Under the pieces are notes generated by a model that saw nothing but the letters and a program-made list of their open reading frames with translations, searched no databases and was not told where the DNA came from. A program made the position numbers and the translations under genes. Positions 21,686 through 30,135 of a stretch of DNA of 52,719 nt are shown piece after piece. Each line of letters opens with the position of its first letter. The first letter of the stretch is position 1. Origin of the DNA: Streptosporangiaceae bacterium (GTDB lineage: Bacteria; Actinomycetota; Actinomycetes; Streptosporangiales; Streptosporangiaceae); contig JASHOL010000147.1 of the NCBI GenBank assembly GCA_030041135.1, forward strand, positions 1 through 52,719, written 5' to 3'.

Positions 21686-21802
21686 GCCTATAGGTCTCGT
21701 TTTGGCAACAAATGGAAGCCGACCTTGCGCGGGGTAGCGCCGGTCGTGAATCTTGGTTCATTCCGTTGCGGCGGCGCGGGGCCTGAGCGAGGACCATGCA
21801 CG

Positions 21803-22648
21803 ATGAATAACGGTTCACCTGGCGCAGGAGAGCACGTCGGCACGGCAGACGACAGCCTGGACGTGCGCGGGATAACCGTTCACTTTGGCGGCCTGGTCGC
21901 GCTGGAGGATGTCTCGCTGACCGCGGCGGCCCGGCAGGTGACCGGCATCATCGGGCCCAACGGTGCCGGGAAGACCACGCTGCTGAACGTCCTGTGCGGG
22001 TTCGTCCGGCCGCAGGCAGGAACGATTGCCTTCGGCGGCAGGGAACTCAGCCGGATGCGACCTCATCGGCTGGCAGGCCTGGGCATCGCCAGGACGCTCC
22101 AGGGCATCGGCCTGTTCAGCGGGCTTACCGTCGTCGAGAACGTGATGGTGGGCGCGACCAGCAGGGCCAGGGCTGGGTTCTGGTCCGGCTTACTCGGGCT
22201 GACACGGTCCGACGCGGATGAGCGCAGGCTGCGCGGTGACTCGATGCAGGCGCTGGAGTTGGTCGGCGTCGACGAGTATGCCGATGACAACCCCGATACG
22301 CTCCCGCACGGCGTGCGCAAGCGGGTGGCGCTCGCCAGGGCGCTGGTAGCCAAGCCCAGGCTGCTGCTTCTGGACGAGCCCGCCAGCGGGTTGTCGGAGT
22401 CCGAGCTGGCCGATCTCAGCGCCCTGATGACGTCTCTGGCGCGCCAGTGCACGGTGGTCGTCATCGAGCACCGGATGGATCTGATGATGTCGGTCTGCCA
22501 GCAGATCTTCGTGCTCGACTTCGGCAAGCTGATCGCCTCAGGGACACCGGAGGAGATACAGGCAGACTCCGCGGTCACCGCCGCCTATCTCGGCTCCGAC
22601 GTGGCCGAGGCGGACGCAGCCGGCCAGCGCGAGGAGGCGAGCCAGTAA
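21803..22648 (+). CDS. Liv-type ABC transporter ATP-binding protein (LivG-like)
   Basis: The 281-residue protein has Walker A GPNGAGKTT, Walker B LLLLDEPASGL and switch His in VVIEHRMDLM. The signature is degenerate (LPHGVRKRVALARAL for LSGGQ), as is usual for LivG. The helical insertion ENVMVGATSRARAG is typical of branched-chain amino-acid importers. ATG 21803 has GAGG about ten bases upstream; the open frame extends to 21560 inside the DeoR gene without support. Its stop overlaps the start of the next ATPase gene by one base (TAATG). It drives import together with the four following genes. Confidence 0.94.
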   Translation: MNNGSPGAGEHVGTADDSLDVRGITVHFGGLVALEDVSLTAAARQVTGIIGPNGAGKTTLLNVLCGFVRPQAGTIAFGGRELSRMRPHRLAGLGIARTLQGIGLFSGLTVVENVMVGATSRARAGFWSGLLGLTRSDADERRLRGDSMQALELVGVDEYADDNPDTLPHGVRKRVALARALVAKPRLLLLDEPASGLSESELADLSALMTSLARQCTVVVIEHRMDLMMSVCQQIFVLDFGKLIASGTPEEIQADSAVTAAYLGSDVAEADAAGQREEASQ

Positions 22649-23364
22649 TGCCGGCTTCATCGCTCGCCGTCACCGACGTTGTCGCGGGTTATGGCAGTGC
22701 GCCGGTGCTGAACGGAGTCTCGATCACCGCCAGGCCCGCCACTATCACCGCCGTCCTCGGTGCCAACGGCGCGGGGAAGACCACCTTGCTGCGGACGATT
22801 TCCGGGTTCGTCCGGACGCGCAGCGGTCAGGTGCGGCTGGACGAGGTCAGCCTGACCAGGCTTGCGCCCGATCACATCGCCAGGTCCGGTGTCGCGCACG
22901 TGCCCGAGGGCCAGGGCGTCATCACGGAGCTGACCGTCGAGGAGAACCTCAGGCTCGGGCTGCTACTGCGGCGCCGCGCCGACCGTGCCGCTGCGCTCGA
23001 TGACGCCTACCGCCGGTTCGGCATCCTGGCCGACCGGCGGCGCAGGCACGCGGCGACCTTGTCGGGCGGGGAGCGGCAGATGCTCGTCATCGCCAGGGCG
23101 CTGTTGTCTGCGCCGCGGGTGCTGCTGCTCGACGAGCCGTCTCTCGGACTCGCACCGAAGATCGTGGCCCAGGTGATGGATCTGGTGCGGCAGCTGCGTG
23201 ACGACAGCGGGCTCACCGTGCTGCTGGTCGAGCAGAACGCGCGCAGTGCGCTATCCATCGCCGACCAGGGCGTGGTGCTGAATCTCGGCAAGGTGGTCGC
23301 GACGGCGCCCGCCGGCGAGCTGGCGGCCGACGTCGCGTTGCGTCGGCACTACCTGGGTTTCTAG
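22648..23364 (+). CDS. Liv-type ABC transporter ATP-binding protein (LivF-like)
   Basis: The 238-residue ATPase has Walker A GANGAGKTT, a perfect signature LSGGERQMLVIARAL, Walker B VLLLDEPSLGL and switch His replaced by Gln in LLVEQNAR, as is normal for LivF. The GVAHVPEGQGVITELTVEEN segment is characteristic. ATG 22648 overlaps the previous stop, and GAGGAGG lies about ten bases upstream. It is the second ATPase of the hetero-dimeric importer. Confidence 0.95.
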   Translation: MPASSLAVTDVVAGYGSAPVLNGVSITARPATITAVLGANGAGKTTLLRTISGFVRTRSGQVRLDEVSLTRLAPDHIARSGVAHVPEGQGVITELTVEENLRLGLLLRRRADRAAALDDAYRRFGILADRRRRHAATLSGGERQMLVIARALLSAPRVLLLDEPSLGLAPKIVAQVMDLVRQLRDDSGLTVLLVEQNARSALSIADQGVVLNLGKVVATAPAGELAADVALRRHYLGF

Positions 23365-23376
23365 CGGAGGGCGCGG

Positions 23377-24261
23377 ATGCAGGAGTTTGTCGAGTTCACG
23401 CTCGGAGGCGTGAGTGACGGCGTGATCTACGCCGCCATCGGGCTGTCGCTCGTGCTGATCTGGCGCGCGACGAGGGTGCTCAACTACGCCCAGGGCGGCA
23501 TGGCCATGTTCACCAGCTACATAGCGCTGATCGTGATCAACTCCACCGGCAATTACTGGCTCGGGTTCATCGTCGCGCTGGCCGCTGGGCTGGTCATGGG
23601 CGGCGTCGTGGAACGCGTCGTCATCCGGCCGACCGCCGGAAAGCCGCACCTGAACGCGGTGATCGTGACCATCGGCCTGCTCATCCTCGTCGAGGGTCTC
23701 GCCGGGATCATCTACGGCAGCAAGAACCGCTCGTTCCCGACGCCGTACTCGATCGTCGGGGCGAAGATCGGGAGCTTTGACCTCGGCGAGGGCTCGTCGC
23801 CGAGCGCAATCTTCACCGCCTTCGCGGTGCTGGCCGCAGCCGGCCTGCTGGCTGTCCTCTTCCGGTACACCGCGGTCGGGCTGCGCATGCGCGCCTCGGC
23901 CTTCAGCGGGACCGTCGCCCAGCTCATGGGCGTCCGGGTGGGCCGCATTACAACGCTGGGCTGGGCGCTGGCCGGACTCATCGGCGCCCTGGCCGGGATG
24001 CTCGTCACGCCCCAGACCTTCCTGTACCCGAACAGCATGGACTCGATCTTCGTGCTGGGTTTCACCGCGGCCGTTATCGGCGGACTGGACAGCCCAGGCG
24101 GCGCGATTGTCGGCGGACTGATCCTCGGCGTCCTGCTGAGCTACGTGACCGGGTACGTCGGCAGCAACCTGCCTGAGCTCGCGGGCCTCGCGCTCCTGAT
24201 CCTGGTGCTGATGTTCCGGCCGTCAGGACTGTTCGCCTCGACCGCCACCAGGCAGGTGTAG
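23377..24261 (+). CDS. Liv-type ABC transporter permease (LivH-like)
   Basis: The 294-residue protein has about eight membrane helices, the N-terminal motif GVSDGVIYAAIGLSLVLIWR, NYAQGGMAMFTSY and the C-terminal GGLDSPGGAIVGGLILGVLL found in LivH. GGAGG lies six bases before ATG 23377. It forms the membrane channel with the LivM-like protein encoded four bases downstream. Substrates of such systems include branched-chain amino acids, amides, urea and aromatic or dicarboxylic acids. Confidence 0.95.
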   Translation: MQEFVEFTLGGVSDGVIYAAIGLSLVLIWRATRVLNYAQGGMAMFTSYIALIVINSTGNYWLGFIVALAAGLVMGGVVERVVIRPTAGKPHLNAVIVTIGLLILVEGLAGIIYGSKNRSFPTPYSIVGAKIGSFDLGEGSSPSAIFTAFAVLAAAGLLAVLFRYTAVGLRMRASAFSGTVAQLMGVRVGRITTLGWALAGLIGALAGMLVTPQTFLYPNSMDSIFVLGFTAAVIGGLDSPGGAIVGGLILGVLLSYVTGYVGSNLPELAGLALLILVLMFRPSGLFASTATRQV

Positions 24262-24265
24262 TCAC

Positions 24266-25330
24266 ATGACTCTAGCCAGGCACGCCGGGCTCGGCATCCT
24301 CGCTTGCGTCGTGCTGCTCGTGCTGGCCAGCAGGCTGGATGCCTACCGTCAATACCAGATGGCGCAGGTAGCGGCCACGGTAGTCGCCGTCGCCGGGCTG
24401 ACCGTGCTGATCGGGGTCAGCGGCCAGCTGTCGATCGGCCACGGAGCCTTCATGTTCGTCGGCGGCTACGCCACGGCCCTGCTGGTCATGCACCTGAACT
24501 GGCCGCTGGCCCTGGTGATCGTGGCCAGCGCCGCTGTCGCGGCGCTGGCCGGCGGGGTCATGGGCGTCGCCGCAGCCCGGTTGCGCGGGCCGTACCTGGC
24601 GGGGGCAACGCTGATGCTCGCGGTGGCGCTGCCCGCGGTCGCCTACCAGTGGCAGGGCGTGTTCGGCGGGGACCAGGGCCTCGACTTCACGGTCACGACA
24701 CCCCGCTTCCTTGGTGCCTCGTTCCAGCTGACGGAGTGGCAGGCCTGGGTGTGCTGCATCTGCCTGGTCATCGTGATGGTGCTGCTAGCCAATCTGCTCC
24801 GCAGCCGGATCGGCCGGAGCTGGCGGGCGCTGCGGGACAACGAGACGGCGGCCGCTCTCTCCGGCCTGAATGTCGCCAGGCTGCGGGTACTGGCCTTCGC
24901 CCTGAGCGCGGGATGCGCGGGCGTGGCCGGTTCCCTCCTGGCCATGACCATGCTGAACGTGACGCCAGGGGCGTTCACCCTGGCGCTGTCGATCCAGTTG
25001 CTCACCGCCGTGGTGCTCGGCGGGCTCGGCAGCCTGGCCGGCGCGGTCTGGGGCGGGATCATCCTGGTTCTCGTCCCGCCGTTCCTGACCGACTTCGCTG
25101 CCAGCCACGGTTTCTCCTCGGCCAGCGCGAGCGTGCCCGTCGCCGGCTACGGCCTGGTGCTCATCGTCGTGATGCTCCTGTTCCCGGCCGGCATCCAAGG
25201 CGGCGTGCGCCGGCTGCTGGGTCCGGTGGCGCCAGCCGCGACCGGCCCCGTCGGCGCGATCGGCAGGCGCCTGGCCCATCGGCTGCAAGAAAGCTCCAGT
25301 GCAGAGACCCGCGAAGAACGCAGTGGATAG
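24266..25330 (+). CDS. Liv-type ABC transporter permease (LivM-like)
   Basis: The 354-residue protein has roughly ten membrane helices and LivM signatures: TVLIGVSGQLSIGHGAFMFV, RGPYLAGATLMLAVALP, WRALRDNETAAALSGLNVAR (the cytoplasmic ATPase-docking loop) and GGLGSLAGAVWGGIIL. The C-terminal ~35 residues are a hydrophilic tail. ATG 24266 follows the LivH stop by four bases. It is part of the same operon. Confidence 0.94.
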   Translation: MTLARHAGLGILACVVLLVLASRLDAYRQYQMAQVAATVVAVAGLTVLIGVSGQLSIGHGAFMFVGGYATALLVMHLNWPLALVIVASAAVAALAGGVMGVAAARLRGPYLAGATLMLAVALPAVAYQWQGVFGGDQGLDFTVTTPRFLGASFQLTEWQAWVCCICLVIVMVLLANLLRSRIGRSWRALRDNETAAALSGLNVARLRVLAFALSAGCAGVAGSLLAMTMLNVTPGAFTLALSIQLLTAVVLGGLGSLAGAVWGGIILVLVPPFLTDFAASHGFSSASASVPVAGYGLVLIVVMLLFPAGIQGGVRRLLGPVAPAATGPVGAIGRRLAHRLQESSSAETREERSG

Positions 25331-25342
25331 GGAAGGGACTAG

Positions 25343-26668
25343 ATGGCCAGATACCGCAAACTGGGCCTCGCGCCCGTCACCGCCCTGGCGGCGCTGAGCA
25401 TGATGCTGGCCGCCTGCGGCAGCAGCTCACCATCGTCGTCAGGCGCGCTGCAGGCCTCCGCGCCCGGCATCACCGCCAAGACGATTACCATCGGCAGCCA
25501 CCAGCCCTTAACGGGCATCGCGGCGCCGGGCTACGACGAGATCGCGCCCGCATCGAACGCCTACTTCCAGTACGTGAACGCGCACGGCGGGGTCTACGGC
25601 CGCAAGATCATCTATAAGTACCTGAACGACCAGTACAACTCCTCGATCACGACGACGGTCGTCCGCCAGCTGATCCTCCAGGACCACGTCTTCGCCATCT
25701 TCAACGGGCTCGGCACGCCCACCCATCTGGCCGTGGCCCCGTTCATCAACGCGGAGGGGGTCCCCGACTTGTTCGTGGCCTCCGGCTGCGCATGCTGGAA
25801 CGCGCCGTCTACCTGGCCGGAGACGTTCGGCTGGCAGATCAACTACATCAGGGAGGGCAAGATTCTCGGCGCCTACGTCGCCGCGCACTTCAAGGGCAAG
25901 AAGATCGCCTACTTCTACCAGGACGACGAGTTCGGGCTGGACGGCATCAAGGGCCTCGGGTACGAGATTCCCGCGTCGCAGGTCGTGGCGAAGGAGCCCT
26001 ATAACGTGAACGCCGCCAACCCGGCCGCCGAGGTCGAAACCCTGACCGCGGCGCTCAAGGCGTCCAGGGCGCAGGTCGTCATCGCGTTCGCGGTACCGGC
26101 CTTCATGGCGCTCCTGCGGCTGTCCGAGCTCGGCCTCAGCTACAGCCCGCAGCTGGTCAGCAGCGACGTCGGCTCTGATCCGATCACGCTTTCCGGTCTG
26201 CTCAACGCGTACGCGAAGAAGACCGGCAGCTTCGGGGACTCGCTGATCCAGGGCATCATCACCGACAGCTACCTGCCCTCGCTTGGCAGCACGGGCAGCA
26301 GCTGGATCGCGCTGTTCACCAAGATTCACAATCAGTACATCCCGAGGCTGCCCATGGACGGCAACGTGCTGTACGGGATGGCCGTCGCCTACACGTTCGT
26401 GCAGGCGATGTTCAAGGCCGGCCGCAATCCGACCAGGCAGGACCTGGTCAACGCGGTGAACTCCGGCTTGCCGCAGGGCGTCTCGGTCGCGCCGTATGCG
26501 TACTCTTCCACCGATCACGATGGGATCACCGGCGCTTACATCGCCGAGATCGAGTCGGGCGTGCTCGTCAAGCTCGGTCCGGTGCAGGTGACCGACAACA
26601 CCCCCACCGGCGCGGTCACGACGTATACGACTGCGCAGCCGCCGGCTCCCTCCAGCGGCATACCGTAG
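25343..26668 (+). CDS. Liv-type periplasmic binding lipoprotein (Peripla_BP_6)
   Basis: The 441-residue protein has a lipoprotein signal with lipobox LAAC (lipid Cys about residue 25) and a Ser linker. The type-I periplasmic fold follows: ITAKTITIGSHQPLTGIAAP, NAHGGVYGRKIIYKYLNDQY, then KIAYFYQDDEFGLDGIKGL and DGNVLYGMAVAYTFVQAM. It captures the substrate for the importer encoded just upstream. A strong hairpin at 26688-26716 follows. Such proteins bind amino acids or small organic acids; the CoA-ligase and lyase-like genes downstream favour a carboxylic acid. Confidence 0.94.
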   Translation: MARYRKLGLAPVTALAALSMMLAACGSSSPSSSGALQASAPGITAKTITIGSHQPLTGIAAPGYDEIAPASNAYFQYVNAHGGVYGRKIIYKYLNDQYNSSITTTVVRQLILQDHVFAIFNGLGTPTHLAVAPFINAEGVPDLFVASGCACWNAPSTWPETFGWQINYIREGKILGAYVAAHFKGKKIAYFYQDDEFGLDGIKGLGYEIPASQVVAKEPYNVNAANPAAEVETLTAALKASRAQVVIAFAVPAFMALLRLSELGLSYSPQLVSSDVGSDPITLSGLLNAYAKKTGSFGDSLIQGIITDSYLPSLGSTGSSWIALFTKIHNQYIPRLPMDGNVLYGMAVAYTFVQAMFKAGRNPTRQDLVNAVNSGLPQGVSVAPYAYSSTDHDGITGAYIAEIESGVLVKLGPVQVTDNTPTGAVTTYTTAQPPAPSSGIP

Positions 26669-26687
26669 CCTGACGGCGTCAGTGGTT

Positions 26688-26716
26688 CGGCCGCCCGCGA
26701 GTTTCGCGGGCGGCCG
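26688..26716 (+). terminator. Hairpin after the Liv operon
   Basis: CGGCCGCCCGCG (26688-26699) pairs perfectly with CGCGGGCGGCCG (26705-26716) around a 5-base AGTTT loop. It sits between the binding-protein stop and the TetR start and may end or attenuate the Liv transcript. Confidence 0.7.
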
Positions 26717-26751
26717 GACCGGGCGGGACGAGCGTCGGAGCAGGGGTCAGT

Positions 26752-27522
26752 GTGGCAAGCACCCTCGGCCGGAGGTCGGCCGCATCTACGGAGCCGCCGG
26801 GCGAGCGGCTGCTGGTAGCCGCGGAGCACTTGTTCGGCGAGCGCAGCTACCGCCGCACGTCGGTCGCAGATATCTGCGCCGCGGCCGGCATCGCCACGGG
26901 CAGCTTCTACGCTCACTTCGCGTCCAAGGCCGAGATCTTCACGGCCGTGATCCGGCGCGTCAACGCCGACCTCAGGGCGGCCATGGCGGCCGCGCTGCAG
27001 ACCGCGGCCGGCAACCAGCGGGCCAGGGAGCGGGCAGCATTCCGGGCGTACTTCGACCTGATGTCGCAGCGCCCGTGGATATTCCGGATCCTTCGCGAGG
27101 CGGAGTTCCTCGCGCCGAGCGAGTTCCGCGGCTACTACGAGCGGCTAGTCCGCGGGTACGCCAGGGGCGTGCGGGTAGCCCAGCTGGCGGGCGAGGTCGA
27201 CCCCAAATATGACCCGGAAGTGATCGCCTATATCTACACCGGGCTCGGGCACTTCGTCGGCATGCGGTGGACGGAGTGGACGGAGGGCGGTCGCGTGCCG
27301 GACGACGTGTTCGAAGACCTCTTGGACGTGCTGGCCAGAGGCCTGCCGCCGGTCAGCCGAGCCGGCAGGGATGACTCGGCCGACACGGTCGGCTCGGCCG
27401 GCGCGGACGGCGCCGTCGAAGCCGCCAGCTCGCCCCGCGAGCCAGCCGTGAGTCGGGACGGACAGGAAGGCCAGCCGGCTGCCACGCGGTCGGCCGCAGC
27501 CCGGCCTCGATCGCAGCCCTGA
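26752..27522 (+). CDS. TetR/AcrR-family transcriptional regulator
   Basis: The 256-residue protein has an N-terminal TetR helix-turn-helix: ERLLVAAEHLFGERSYRRTS, then VADICAAAGIATGSFYAHFA and SKAEIFTAV (residues 18-62). A ligand domain with an RPWIFRILREAEFLAPSEFR stretch follows, seen in regulators of acyl-CoA metabolism. The last ~50 residues are disordered and rich in Asp, Ala and Ser. GTG 26752 has AGGGG five bases upstream. Its place between importer and CoA-ligase genes suggests that it controls both, sensing the acid or its CoA ester. Confidence 0.9.
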   Translation: MASTLGRRSAASTEPPGERLLVAAEHLFGERSYRRTSVADICAAAGIATGSFYAHFASKAEIFTAVIRRVNADLRAAMAAALQTAAGNQRARERAAFRAYFDLMSQRPWIFRILREAEFLAPSEFRGYYERLVRGYARGVRVAQLAGEVDPKYDPEVIAYIYTGLGHFVGMRWTEWTEGGRVPDDVFEDLLDVLARGLPPVSRAGRDDSADTVGSAGADGAVEAASSPREPAVSRDGQEGQPAATRSAAARPRSQP

Positions 27523-27577
27523 TCGAGTCGCCGGTGACATCACGAGCGCCTGAGGCGTCTTGTCCTGGGTCAAGTAC

Positions 27578-27593
27578 CGCACGGTAACGTGCG
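27578..27593. promoter_or_regulatory. Candidate TetR operator upstream of the CoA-ligase gene
   Basis: CGCACGGTAACGTGCG is an inverted repeat with 6-bp arms and a 4-base centre, lying 138 bases before the GTG of the ligase gene and 55 bases after the TetR gene. Size and place fit a TetR site, but the evidence is only symmetry. Confidence 0.4.
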
Positions 27594-27730
27594 TGGGGTG
27601 ACGACGACCGGACCAGCCTGGCGCCTTACCGGCACTGCCAGGGACTTCCTGACGTCGCCGAGCACTGGCGCGCTTGCGGGATGAAGGCCTACCTGATGAA
27701 GACAACCCTCACCAGGATCGGAGGGGCGGG

Positions 27731-29350
27731 GTGACGCTCGAGACCTACTCCAGGACGATCCCGCGGATCCTGGTGAGCGCGGCAGACCGGGACCCGGCCG
27801 GGACCTGGCTGCGCAGTGACGACGGCTCGCTGACGTTCGAGGGCGCCGTCGCGGCGGTGGGCCTGACCGCGGGAGCGCTCGACGACGCGGGCGTACGCGC
27901 CGGCGATGTGGTCATGATGACGGCCGGCACCACCGTGCCGTACCTGCTGTGCTGGCTGGCGTCGGCCGCTCTGGGTGCGATCACGGTCGCGGTGAACCCG
28001 CGCAGCACCCCCGCCGAGCTGGCCGGCCTGGCCGGCCAGACCCGGCCACGGGTGATCCTCACCGGCCCCGGGCTTGGCGGCCCTGTGACTGCGACGGCCC
28101 CCTGGGATGGCACTCCCGGCCTGCCGAAGCAGGAGCAGGCCAAGGTGGTCGATGTCACGACGCTCGTGCCGCGCGACTGGGCCGACCACGCCGCGATGGC
28201 CGCGGCGGCCGGGCGGGTGGCCCTGTCCGACCGGCCGTCTCCTGACGACCTCGCCGTCCTGATTCCGACCTCAGGCACGACCGGACGCTCCAAGCTGGTT
28301 ATGCAGACGCACCGGGCCTACGCGATGGCCGGGGAAGGCTTCCCGTTCTGGATGGAGCTGACGTCCGAGGACCGGCTCATGACCACGCTGCCGTTGTTCC
28401 ACGTCAACGCCCCCGCGTACTCGGTCATGGGCTCCCTCGCGAGCGGCGCCGGCCTGGTCCTCGTCGAGCGGTTCTCCGCCAGCGGTTTCCTGGACGCGGC
28501 GCGGCGCCATGCGGCGACCGAGTTCAACGCGATCGGCGCGATGCTCGAGATCCTCATGCGCCAGCCTGAGCGGCCCGACGATGCCGACACCCCGCTGCGA
28601 CTGTGCTACACCGGGCCTGCGCCCGAGCGCGAGCGGCAGCTGGAGATGGAGAAACGTTTCGGGCTGCGCATCGTCGTCGGATATGCGCTGTCCGAGTCGC
28701 CGTACGGGCTGATCTGGGCCCGCGGCACCCGGCCGTACGGCACGCTCGGCTCGGTCCGCCAGCACCCCTACCTGGGCGACATCAACGAGGCCAGGGTCGC
28801 GAGTGAGGACGGCCGGGTGCTGAGCCCCGGCGCTACCGGCGAGCTGCAGCTGCGTAACCCCGTCCTGACGCCCGGCTACTGGGGCATGCCCGAGGAGACG
28901 GCCCAGGTCATGTCCGACGGCTGGCTGCGCACCGGCGACCTTGTCACCGCCAACGCGGACGGCACCTACACCTTCGTCGCCAGGGTCAAGGAGGTGATCA
29001 GGCGGCGCGGCGAAAACCTGTCTCCCCTCGAGGTCGAAGAGGTGCTGCAGGCCCACCCCGCGGTGCTGGAGTGCGCCGTCGTAGGCGTGCCGTCTGAGCT
29101 GTCCGAGGAGGAAGTCAAGGCGTTCCTCGTCGCGGCGCCGGGTGAGGAGCTCAGCTTTCCCGAGCTGCGTGCCTTCGCCGCCGGCCGGCTTGCGGCCTTC
29201 AAGGTTCCCAGGTACTGGGAGCAGGTGGCCGAGCTGCCGAGAACGCCCACGGCCAGGGTGGCCAAGCACCGGCTGCCGGCCGGTCATCCGCCCGGCGAAT
29301 ACGACGCGGACGCGAACGGCCAGGCGCGCACGCTTAAGGGAGAGAAGTGA
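27731..29350 (+). CDS. AMP-forming acyl-CoA ligase (ANL superfamily)
   Basis: The 539-residue enzyme has the adenylation core motifs: LIPTSGTTGRSKLVMQTH (P-loop), GYALSESPYGL, GWLRTGD, hinge RVKEVIRRRGENLSPLEVEE and the C-terminal catalytic Lys in PRTPTARVAKHRL. It activates a carboxylic acid to acyl-AMP and then acyl-CoA. GTG 27731 has GGAGG six bases upstream. Its stop overlaps the start of the citryl-CoA-lyase-like gene (GTGA), so the two products are made together. The likely substrate is whatever the Liv-type importer brings in, possibly a hydroxy- or keto-acid; this is inference. Confidence 0.93.
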   Translation: MTLETYSRTIPRILVSAADRDPAGTWLRSDDGSLTFEGAVAAVGLTAGALDDAGVRAGDVVMMTAGTTVPYLLCWLASAALGAITVAVNPRSTPAELAGLAGQTRPRVILTGPGLGGPVTATAPWDGTPGLPKQEQAKVVDVTTLVPRDWADHAAMAAAAGRVALSDRPSPDDLAVLIPTSGTTGRSKLVMQTHRAYAMAGEGFPFWMELTSEDRLMTTLPLFHVNAPAYSVMGSLASGAGLVLVERFSASGFLDAARRHAATEFNAIGAMLEILMRQPERPDDADTPLRLCYTGPAPERERQLEMEKRFGLRIVVGYALSESPYGLIWARGTRPYGTLGSVRQHPYLGDINEARVASEDGRVLSPGATGELQLRNPVLTPGYWGMPEETAQVMSDGWLRTGDLVTANADGTYTFVARVKEVIRRRGENLSPLEVEEVLQAHPAVLECAVVGVPSELSEEEVKAFLVAAPGEELSFPELRAFAAGRLAAFKVPRYWEQVAELPRTPTARVAKHRLPAGHPPGEYDADANGQARTLKGEK

Positions 29351-30135
29351 CCGAGTACCACACCTCCATCGGCACCTCAGACGCGGAGTCGATCACGCTG
29401 CTCGGGCATGACCTGGCCGGCGAGCTTATGGGCAAGGTCAGCTTCGGTGAACTCGCGTTCTGGCTGACGGCGCTGCGGCGCCCGTCGGCGGGCGAGTTGT
29501 CGGTCTTCGAGGCGGTGCTCGTGGCGCTCGCGGATCACGGGTTCACCCCGTCCGCGATTGCGGCCCGCCTGACGCTGACCGGAGCGCCGGAGTCCCTGCA
29601 GGGAGCACTCGCGGCCGGCCTGCTGGGCGGCGGATCGCGGTACCTGGGGGTCACCGAGGACTGCGGCAAGTTCCTGGCCGCCGCGCTCGCCGCCCATGAC
29701 GGACCGCTGCCCGTCGACGAGGCCGGCTGGGACGAACTAGCGGCACGTGCAGTCACTGCCCAGAAGGCAGCGGGGCGGCTGGTGCCGGGTCTCGGCCATC
29801 CCATCCACAAGCACGGCGACCCGCGCACGCCGGTCATCTTCCAGGTCGCGGCCGACGCCGGGCTGCTCGGGCCTCACCTGCGGCTGTTCGCGGCGGTTGG
29901 CCGCGCGCACCCGCCGATCCTCGGCCGCACCCTCCCACTGAACGGCGCCGGGGTGTGCGGGGCGGCACTGGCCGATCTGGGCTTCCCGCCCGACCTGCTC
30001 CGCGGTTTCGCGCTGCTGGCCAGGACGGCCGGGCTCCTCGGTCACCTGGCCGAGGAGATGCGCAACCCGGTCGGCCAGAGCATCTACCGGCAGACCGACG
30101 AGTCCGTTCGCTATATCCCGCCGCCTGAGCCCTAG
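29347..30135 (+). CDS. Citrate-synthase-fold protein, citryl-CoA-lyase-like
   Basis: The 262-residue protein corresponds to the large domain of citrate synthase. GLGHPIHKHGDPR (148-160) keeps the oxaloacetate-binding His and Arg, as in GxGHPxYxxxDPR. The segment where synthases have GPLHGG reads GGGSRYLG (94-101), so the first catalytic His is absent, and no catalytic Asp is visible in the LNGAGVCGAALADLG region (198-212). Short proteins like this are annotated citryl-CoA lyase or citrate-synthase family protein. They may cleave or form CoA thioesters. GTG 29347 overlaps the ligase stop. Paired with a CoA ligase, it could split an activated acid. Confidence 0.75.
   Translation: MTEYHTSIGTSDAESITLLGHDLAGELMGKVSFGELAFWLTALRRPSAGELSVFEAVLVALADHGFTPSAIAARLTLTGAPESLQGALAAGLLGGGSRYLGVTEDCGKFLAAALAAHDGPLPVDEAGWDELAARAVTAQKAAGRLVPGLGHPIHKHGDPRTPVIFQVAADAGLLGPHLRLFAAVGRAHPPILGRTLPLNGAGVCGAALADLGFPPDLLRGFALLARTAGLLGHLAEEMRNPVGQSIYRQTDESVRYIPPPEP

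Follow-up and report, generated by a model that had tools for sequence, protein, structure and literature searches.

A ligase–lyase gene pair with two altered active sites beside a Liv-type importer in a Streptosporangiaceae bacterium

Gene content of the locus

We analyzed a 52.7-kb stretch of Streptosporangiaceae DNA (the window), in which positions 21803–30135 encode an importer, a regulator, an acid:CoA ligase, and a citrate-synthase-fold protein, all on the + strand. Family scans revealed a complete Liv/HAAT importer set, composed of livG-type (21803–22648) and livF-type (22648–23364) ATP-binding subunits, two BPD_transp_2 permeases of livH type (23377–24261) and livM type (24266–25330; PF02653 for both), and one Peripla_BP_6 substrate-binding lipoprotein (25343–26668; PF13458). 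The livF start was corrected to the ATG at 22648, where the gene overlaps livG by one base. Downstream lie a TetR-family regulator (26752–27522; PF00440), an AMP-forming acid:CoA ligase (27731–29350), and a citryl-CoA-lyase-like protein of the citrate synthase fold (29347–30135). The ligase start, matched to relatives, was corrected to a GTG at 27731, giving a product of 539 aa. Its AMP-binding (PF00501) and AMP-binding_C (PF13193) domains place it among the ANL acid:CoA ligases. The ligase and lyase-fold genes share a four-base overlap (GTGA, 29347–29350). Gene order, shared strand, and this overlap, as described in the original prediction, were all confirmed by sequence and family scans.

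The nearest named relatives of the window are actinobacterial, mostly metagenome assemblies, and include several Streptosporangiaceae. The source genome is itself fragmented (528 contigs) with 7.9% contamination. Between the binding-protein and TetR genes is a GC-rich inverted repeat with 10-base arms, GGCCGCCCGCGAGTTTCGCGGGCGGCC (26688–26715), possibly a terminator or attenuator. On the other side of the locus, an APH(6)/hydroxyurea-kinase-like gene (PF04655; 30320–31318, − strand) lies between the lyase gene and an MDMPI_N gene; it is absent from that spot in the related loci L116, L117, and L118.

Importer and ligase–lyase genes in congeneric genomes

Comparison with congeneric genomes divided the locus in two. 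The importer binding protein was found in 3/9 of these genomes (G000, G006, and G008) and the ligase in 8/9. In the two closest relatives, G008 (L116) and G006 (L128), the stretch between TetR and the ligase holds a DUF6314 gene and a bioY on the opposite strand. The loci of G004 (L117) and G007 (L118) lack the importer, and bioY there directly faces DUF6314–ligase–lyase. Four congeners have a single bioY each, at this locus, and the whole assembly of the window genome, G000, gave no bioY match; its absence elsewhere in G000 could reflect an assembly gap, although the junction falls within a single contig.

Within the window, the TetR and ligase genes are 208 bases apart (27523–27730), a gap on which the original prediction made no comment. 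Alignment with relatives showed that this gap keeps the first and last pieces of the DUF6314 gene, with the middle gone. The truncated, frame-shifted remnant spans 27598–27684 (+ strand) and was recognized by alignment with the intact genes of L116 and L128; the corresponding gene of L037 matches PF19834. As bioY is lost and DUF6314 internally deleted relative to the congeners, the contiguity seen in the window results from deletion rather than from a conserved operon.

Short sequence elements were compared on both sides of this junction. The palindrome TGAA-N6-TTCA occurs exactly twice in the window, against 0.11 expected: TGAATCTTGGTTCA at 21747–21760 and TGAATAACGGTTCA at 21804–21817, the latter over the livG start. 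The first is found at the same position in L116 and L128, the second is also conserved there, and the spacing of the pair is about equal in all three (56–57 bases). These paired palindromes are putative operators at which the TetR protein would act; we infer its binding there. A search for a palindrome common to the livG and ligase promoters found none, and no site like the pair stands before the ligase. On the ligase side, a −10-like element, TAACGT (27585–27590, + strand), stands 7 bases before a GTG. The pattern TANNNT-N7-GTG is kept in four genomes, preceding the DUF6314 gene in L116, L128, and L037, and is typical of leaderless actinobacterial promoters. The ligase side thus appears to retain a promoter-like element of its own, in a leaderless-type arrangement.

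Our data suggest two modules. Module A (21747–27522) would comprise the Liv-type importer with its own TetR regulator. Module B would be a separate operon with its own promoter, ancestrally an opposite-strand bioY facing DUF6314–ligase–lyase. Loss of bioY and most of the DUF6314 gene in this genome would have left module B abutting module A. We lean toward a joint reading in which the two modules are independent, each with its own regulation, and module B carries out CoA activation and C–C cleavage (or formation) with altered active sites.

The original prediction had instead described a single regulated unit that imports, senses, activates, and cleaves one acid. Such a unit would account for genes that are contiguous and co-directional, the last two overlapping, and for an importer within about 1.3 kb of the ligase in every importer-bearing congener (n = 3). 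It is at odds with the bioY and DUF6314 genes between the halves in both close relatives, with ligase–lyase genes where the importer is missing, with operator-like palindromes only at livG, and with importer relatives elsewhere that occur without the lyase. On this comparative evidence importer and ligase appear to be regulated separately, an outcome that the original prediction had itself named as refuting it; a single unit is improbable, and the one-unit interpretation of the locus is mostly wrong.

The importer relatives just mentioned share 52–56% identity and come from two other genera of the same family. Their neighbors are a different TetR and, depending on the locus, a FadD-like ligase, an acyl-CoA dehydrogenase, an ACAD10/11-like phosphotransferase, or a thiolase (the dehydrogenase, phosphotransferase, and thiolase were named by reading sequences; Liv, TetR, and ligase were search matches). 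No lyase homologue was found near them in the stretches read. Our best guess, of low certainty, is that the importer ligand is a hydrophobic or fatty-acid-like carboxylate. The closest solved chain to the binding protein, 4n03 (E 9.8e-14), which we take to be a fatty-acid binder, is too distant to settle specificity, and a literature search on its ligand found nothing useful.

A citryl-CoA-lyase-like protein without the catalytic aspartate

The lyase-fold protein scored 283.7 bits against NF004868 (cut-off 193), and its structural model (pLDDT 91.1) is closest to 6hxp, the citryl-CoA lyase of Hydrogenobacter thermophilus (Z 24.4, TM 0.82). From this model we confidently predict a citryl-CoA-lyase fold. 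Assignment as a citrate or 2-methylcitrate synthase was rejected for want of a full-length profile match: only positions 155–355 of the 357 in the citrate synthase profile were matched, and citrate synthase family models gave 20–31 bits against cut-offs above 330. A CitE-type citramalyl-CoA lyase was rejected because the protein has the citrate synthase fold.

Six residues (His64, His151, His154, Asp158, Arg160, and Arg226) are invariant across 108 lyase homologues, and the two catalytic histidines of citryl-CoA lyase, His64 and His151, are kept in the window protein. Position 201 is the aspartate of the LN-V-D-G motif in citrate synthase, ATP-citrate lyase, and citryl-CoA lyase. The window protein has Ala201 (motif LNGAG) and lacks this catalytic aspartate, as do most homologues (Ala in 98, Thr in 4, Ser in 1, Asp in 5). 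The five Asp-bearing proteins are distant paralogues (L027, L028, L031, L034, and L035; motif MN[VIL]D) and provide a natural control for the Asp-less family. L027, the only one of them scanned, belongs to NF004864; the scanned Asp-less proteins belong to NF004868.

Like 6hxp, the window protein stands alone with a short citrate-synthase fold (about 260 residues), keeps the catalytic His pair and the DPR arginine, and would act after a CoA-activating partner. It differs in sequence (about 28% identity), in the exchange of the catalytic Asp for Ala and of the Arg after the GxGH motif for Pro, and in its partner, here an AMP-forming ligase.

The same residue change in the same motif has been engineered in ATP-citrate lyase. 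In the human enzyme, D1026A traps citryl-CoA and abolishes acetyl-CoA formation (PMC10115795). According to its entry title, 6znw is Methanosaeta ATP-citrate lyase D541A solved with citryl-CoA, an equivalence that rests on the title and not on an alignment of the position. These trap mutants are products of engineering and carry a fused acyl-CoA synthetase module, the human one being inactive; the proteins of the window family are natural, conserved, and stand-alone. Whether the aspartate of ATP-citrate lyase has a catalytic or an allosteric role is debated (PMC10115795).

The window protein is a member of the NF004868 "citryl-CoA lyase" subfamily, whose sampled members share the loss of Asp. 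Our literature search found no biochemical study of any NF004868 member. The name is thus an annotation, and the lack of the aspartate in the sampled members renders it doubtful. This matters because a large family in many bacteria and some archaea bears the name, yet its sampled members lack a residue needed in ATP-citrate lyase. One possibility is that a great many genes are misnamed; the other is that the reaction can do without the aspartate, which would bear directly on the published debate about its role (PMC10115795).

Arginine at the A10 position of the ligase

The ligase presents a second oddity, linked to the Asp-less lyase. The A10 lysine is a key catalytic residue, highly conserved throughout acyl-CoA ligases (PMC8388817). 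In the window ligase, the corresponding motif, PTARVAKHRL, has arginine in its place. The AMP-binding domains and the P-loop, A7, and A8 motifs are otherwise like those of ANL-superfamily acid:CoA ligases such as feruloyl- and oxalyl-CoA synthetase. The exchange of A10 lysine for arginine sets apart each readable ligase adjacent to and paired with the lyase: Arg was present in all 16 readable lyase-paired ligases and in 3 unpaired congeners, and Lys in the own-genome paralogues with a readable motif and in the solved relatives compared. A strict tie between Arg at A10 and lyase pairing was rejected, both for the unpaired congeners and for L084, where a 45%-identical ligase about 2.4 kb from the lyase keeps the lysine. 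Arginine at A10 may impair adenylation. The family of the ligase did not reveal its acid, as NF004808 scored 355.8 bits against a cut-off of 722 and no equivalog was assigned.

Recurrence of the ligase–lyase pair

Neighborhoods were counted over 90 loci with a readable lyase gene. A CaiB-type CoA-transferase lies directly beside the lyase in 68/90, and a ligase of the window type in 12/90, over several orders; the 12 comprise 11 automatic assignments and L044, whose ligase is cut short by a frame break and ends at a greater distance. CoA activation, by transferase or ligase, thus adjoins this lyase family in 80/90 loci. Most of the ligase-linked lyases group in a single 13-row clade (support 87/79) that excludes L038 and L077, and the same ligase–lyase pair occurs in four more distant actinobacteria. 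The pair is a real two-gene module recurring across actinobacteria. The predicted association of ligase and lyase-fold genes therefore held, and CoA activation beside this lyase family proved general; citrate-type cleavage is doubtful, as the protein lacks the catalytic aspartate.

The pair is not obligate, since G001–G003 carry the ligase without an adjacent lyase gene (in G003 the contig continues past the ligase). Each of these three has a CoA-transferase-cluster-type lyase elsewhere, and one lyase was found per congener. In this small, non-independent sample, the pattern hints that ligase-type and CoA-transferase-type lyases can stand in for one another. The two types are separated by residues at positions 69, 77–79, 82, and 233.

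Proposed reaction

We propose that the ligase would make an acyl-CoA from an acid, and that its partner would then cleave (or in reverse form) the C–C bond beside the thioester. The product would be a carboxylate-bearing carbonyl, held by two invariant arginines. Both enzymes would work with altered active sites, Lys to Arg at A10 in the ligase and Asp to Ala in the lyase, which suggests that substrate and details differ from citrate and citryl-CoA. The two lyase arginines match those that hold oxaloacetate in citrate synthase. This correspondence favors a product in which carboxylate and carbonyl are neighbors, and with it a substrate that is a hydroxy-polycarboxylate or yields a keto acid. 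Such a substrate also fits the wider plasmid contexts of the family, which include LeuCD-type dehydratase, MmgE/PrpD, CitE-like lyase, TRAP or tricarboxylate transporters, and LigB-type ring cleavage.

We favor a function in which the pair would activate a hydroxy-polycarboxylate-like acid with CoA and, through a variant active site, cleave a C–C bond in it, with retro-Claisen-type cleavage the most likely activity of the lyase protein. As each enzyme lacks a normally catalytic residue, the pair probably does something other than citryl-CoA cleavage. More tentatively, NF004868 may be a natural Asp-less branch of the citrate synthase fold with a different CoA-dependent C–C reaction; the ligase and lyase of the window would then make up a pathway of two enzymes, each with an active site changed to suit one unusual acid.

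The main rival, which we consider unlikely, is that the lyase-fold protein does not cleave at all and is thioesterase-like, or a binding or allosteric partner of the ligase. The loss of the catalytic Asp is in keeping with this. By analogy with the human Asp-to-Ala ATP-citrate lyase, which makes no acetyl-CoA, the protein may lack cleavage activity, and in one model the role of the ACLY citrate synthase domain is allosteric (PMC10115795). However, the catalytic His pair and both substrate Arg do not vary, and a catalytic step would suit the recurrence of the family by CoA-transferases and ring-cleavage or hydratase genes. That the protein is an ordinary citryl-CoA lyase, supplied by the ligase with citryl-CoA made from citrate, is highly improbable. 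In its favor are an NF004868 score above the cut-off and the Hydrogenobacter citryl-CoA lyase as the nearest solved structure. Against it, alanine takes the place of the catalytic Asp, an exchange that leaves citryl-CoA trapped in ATP-citrate lyase from human and Methanosaeta (PMC10115795; 6znw title), and the ligase is AMP-forming rather than a succinyl-CoA-synthetase-type citryl-CoA synthetase. The doubly altered ligase–lyase pair, together with the doubtful name of NF004868, is a more interesting fact than the one-unit reading of the locus.

Related clusters with ring-cleavage genes

Clusters that combine a CaiB/BaiF CoA-transferase and an NF004868 protein with LigB-type or intradiol dioxygenases resemble the window in placing CoA activation directly beside the same lyase family; they have a CoA-transferase and aromatic ring-cleavage genes where the window has a ligase. 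A literature search for clusters of CaiB, citryl-CoA lyase, and ring-cleavage genes found none. Dozens of actinobacteria carry a CoA-transferase III, an NF004868 protein, and a LigB-type dioxygenase with a ~120-aa small partner (or an intradiol dioxygenase), for example at L131:7361–12079, L135:8971–12208, and L046–L115. These clusters look like an undescribed ring-cleavage route. They are often accompanied by an amidohydrolase and an IclR regulator, and are found in part on the Aminobacter plasmid pUSP2.
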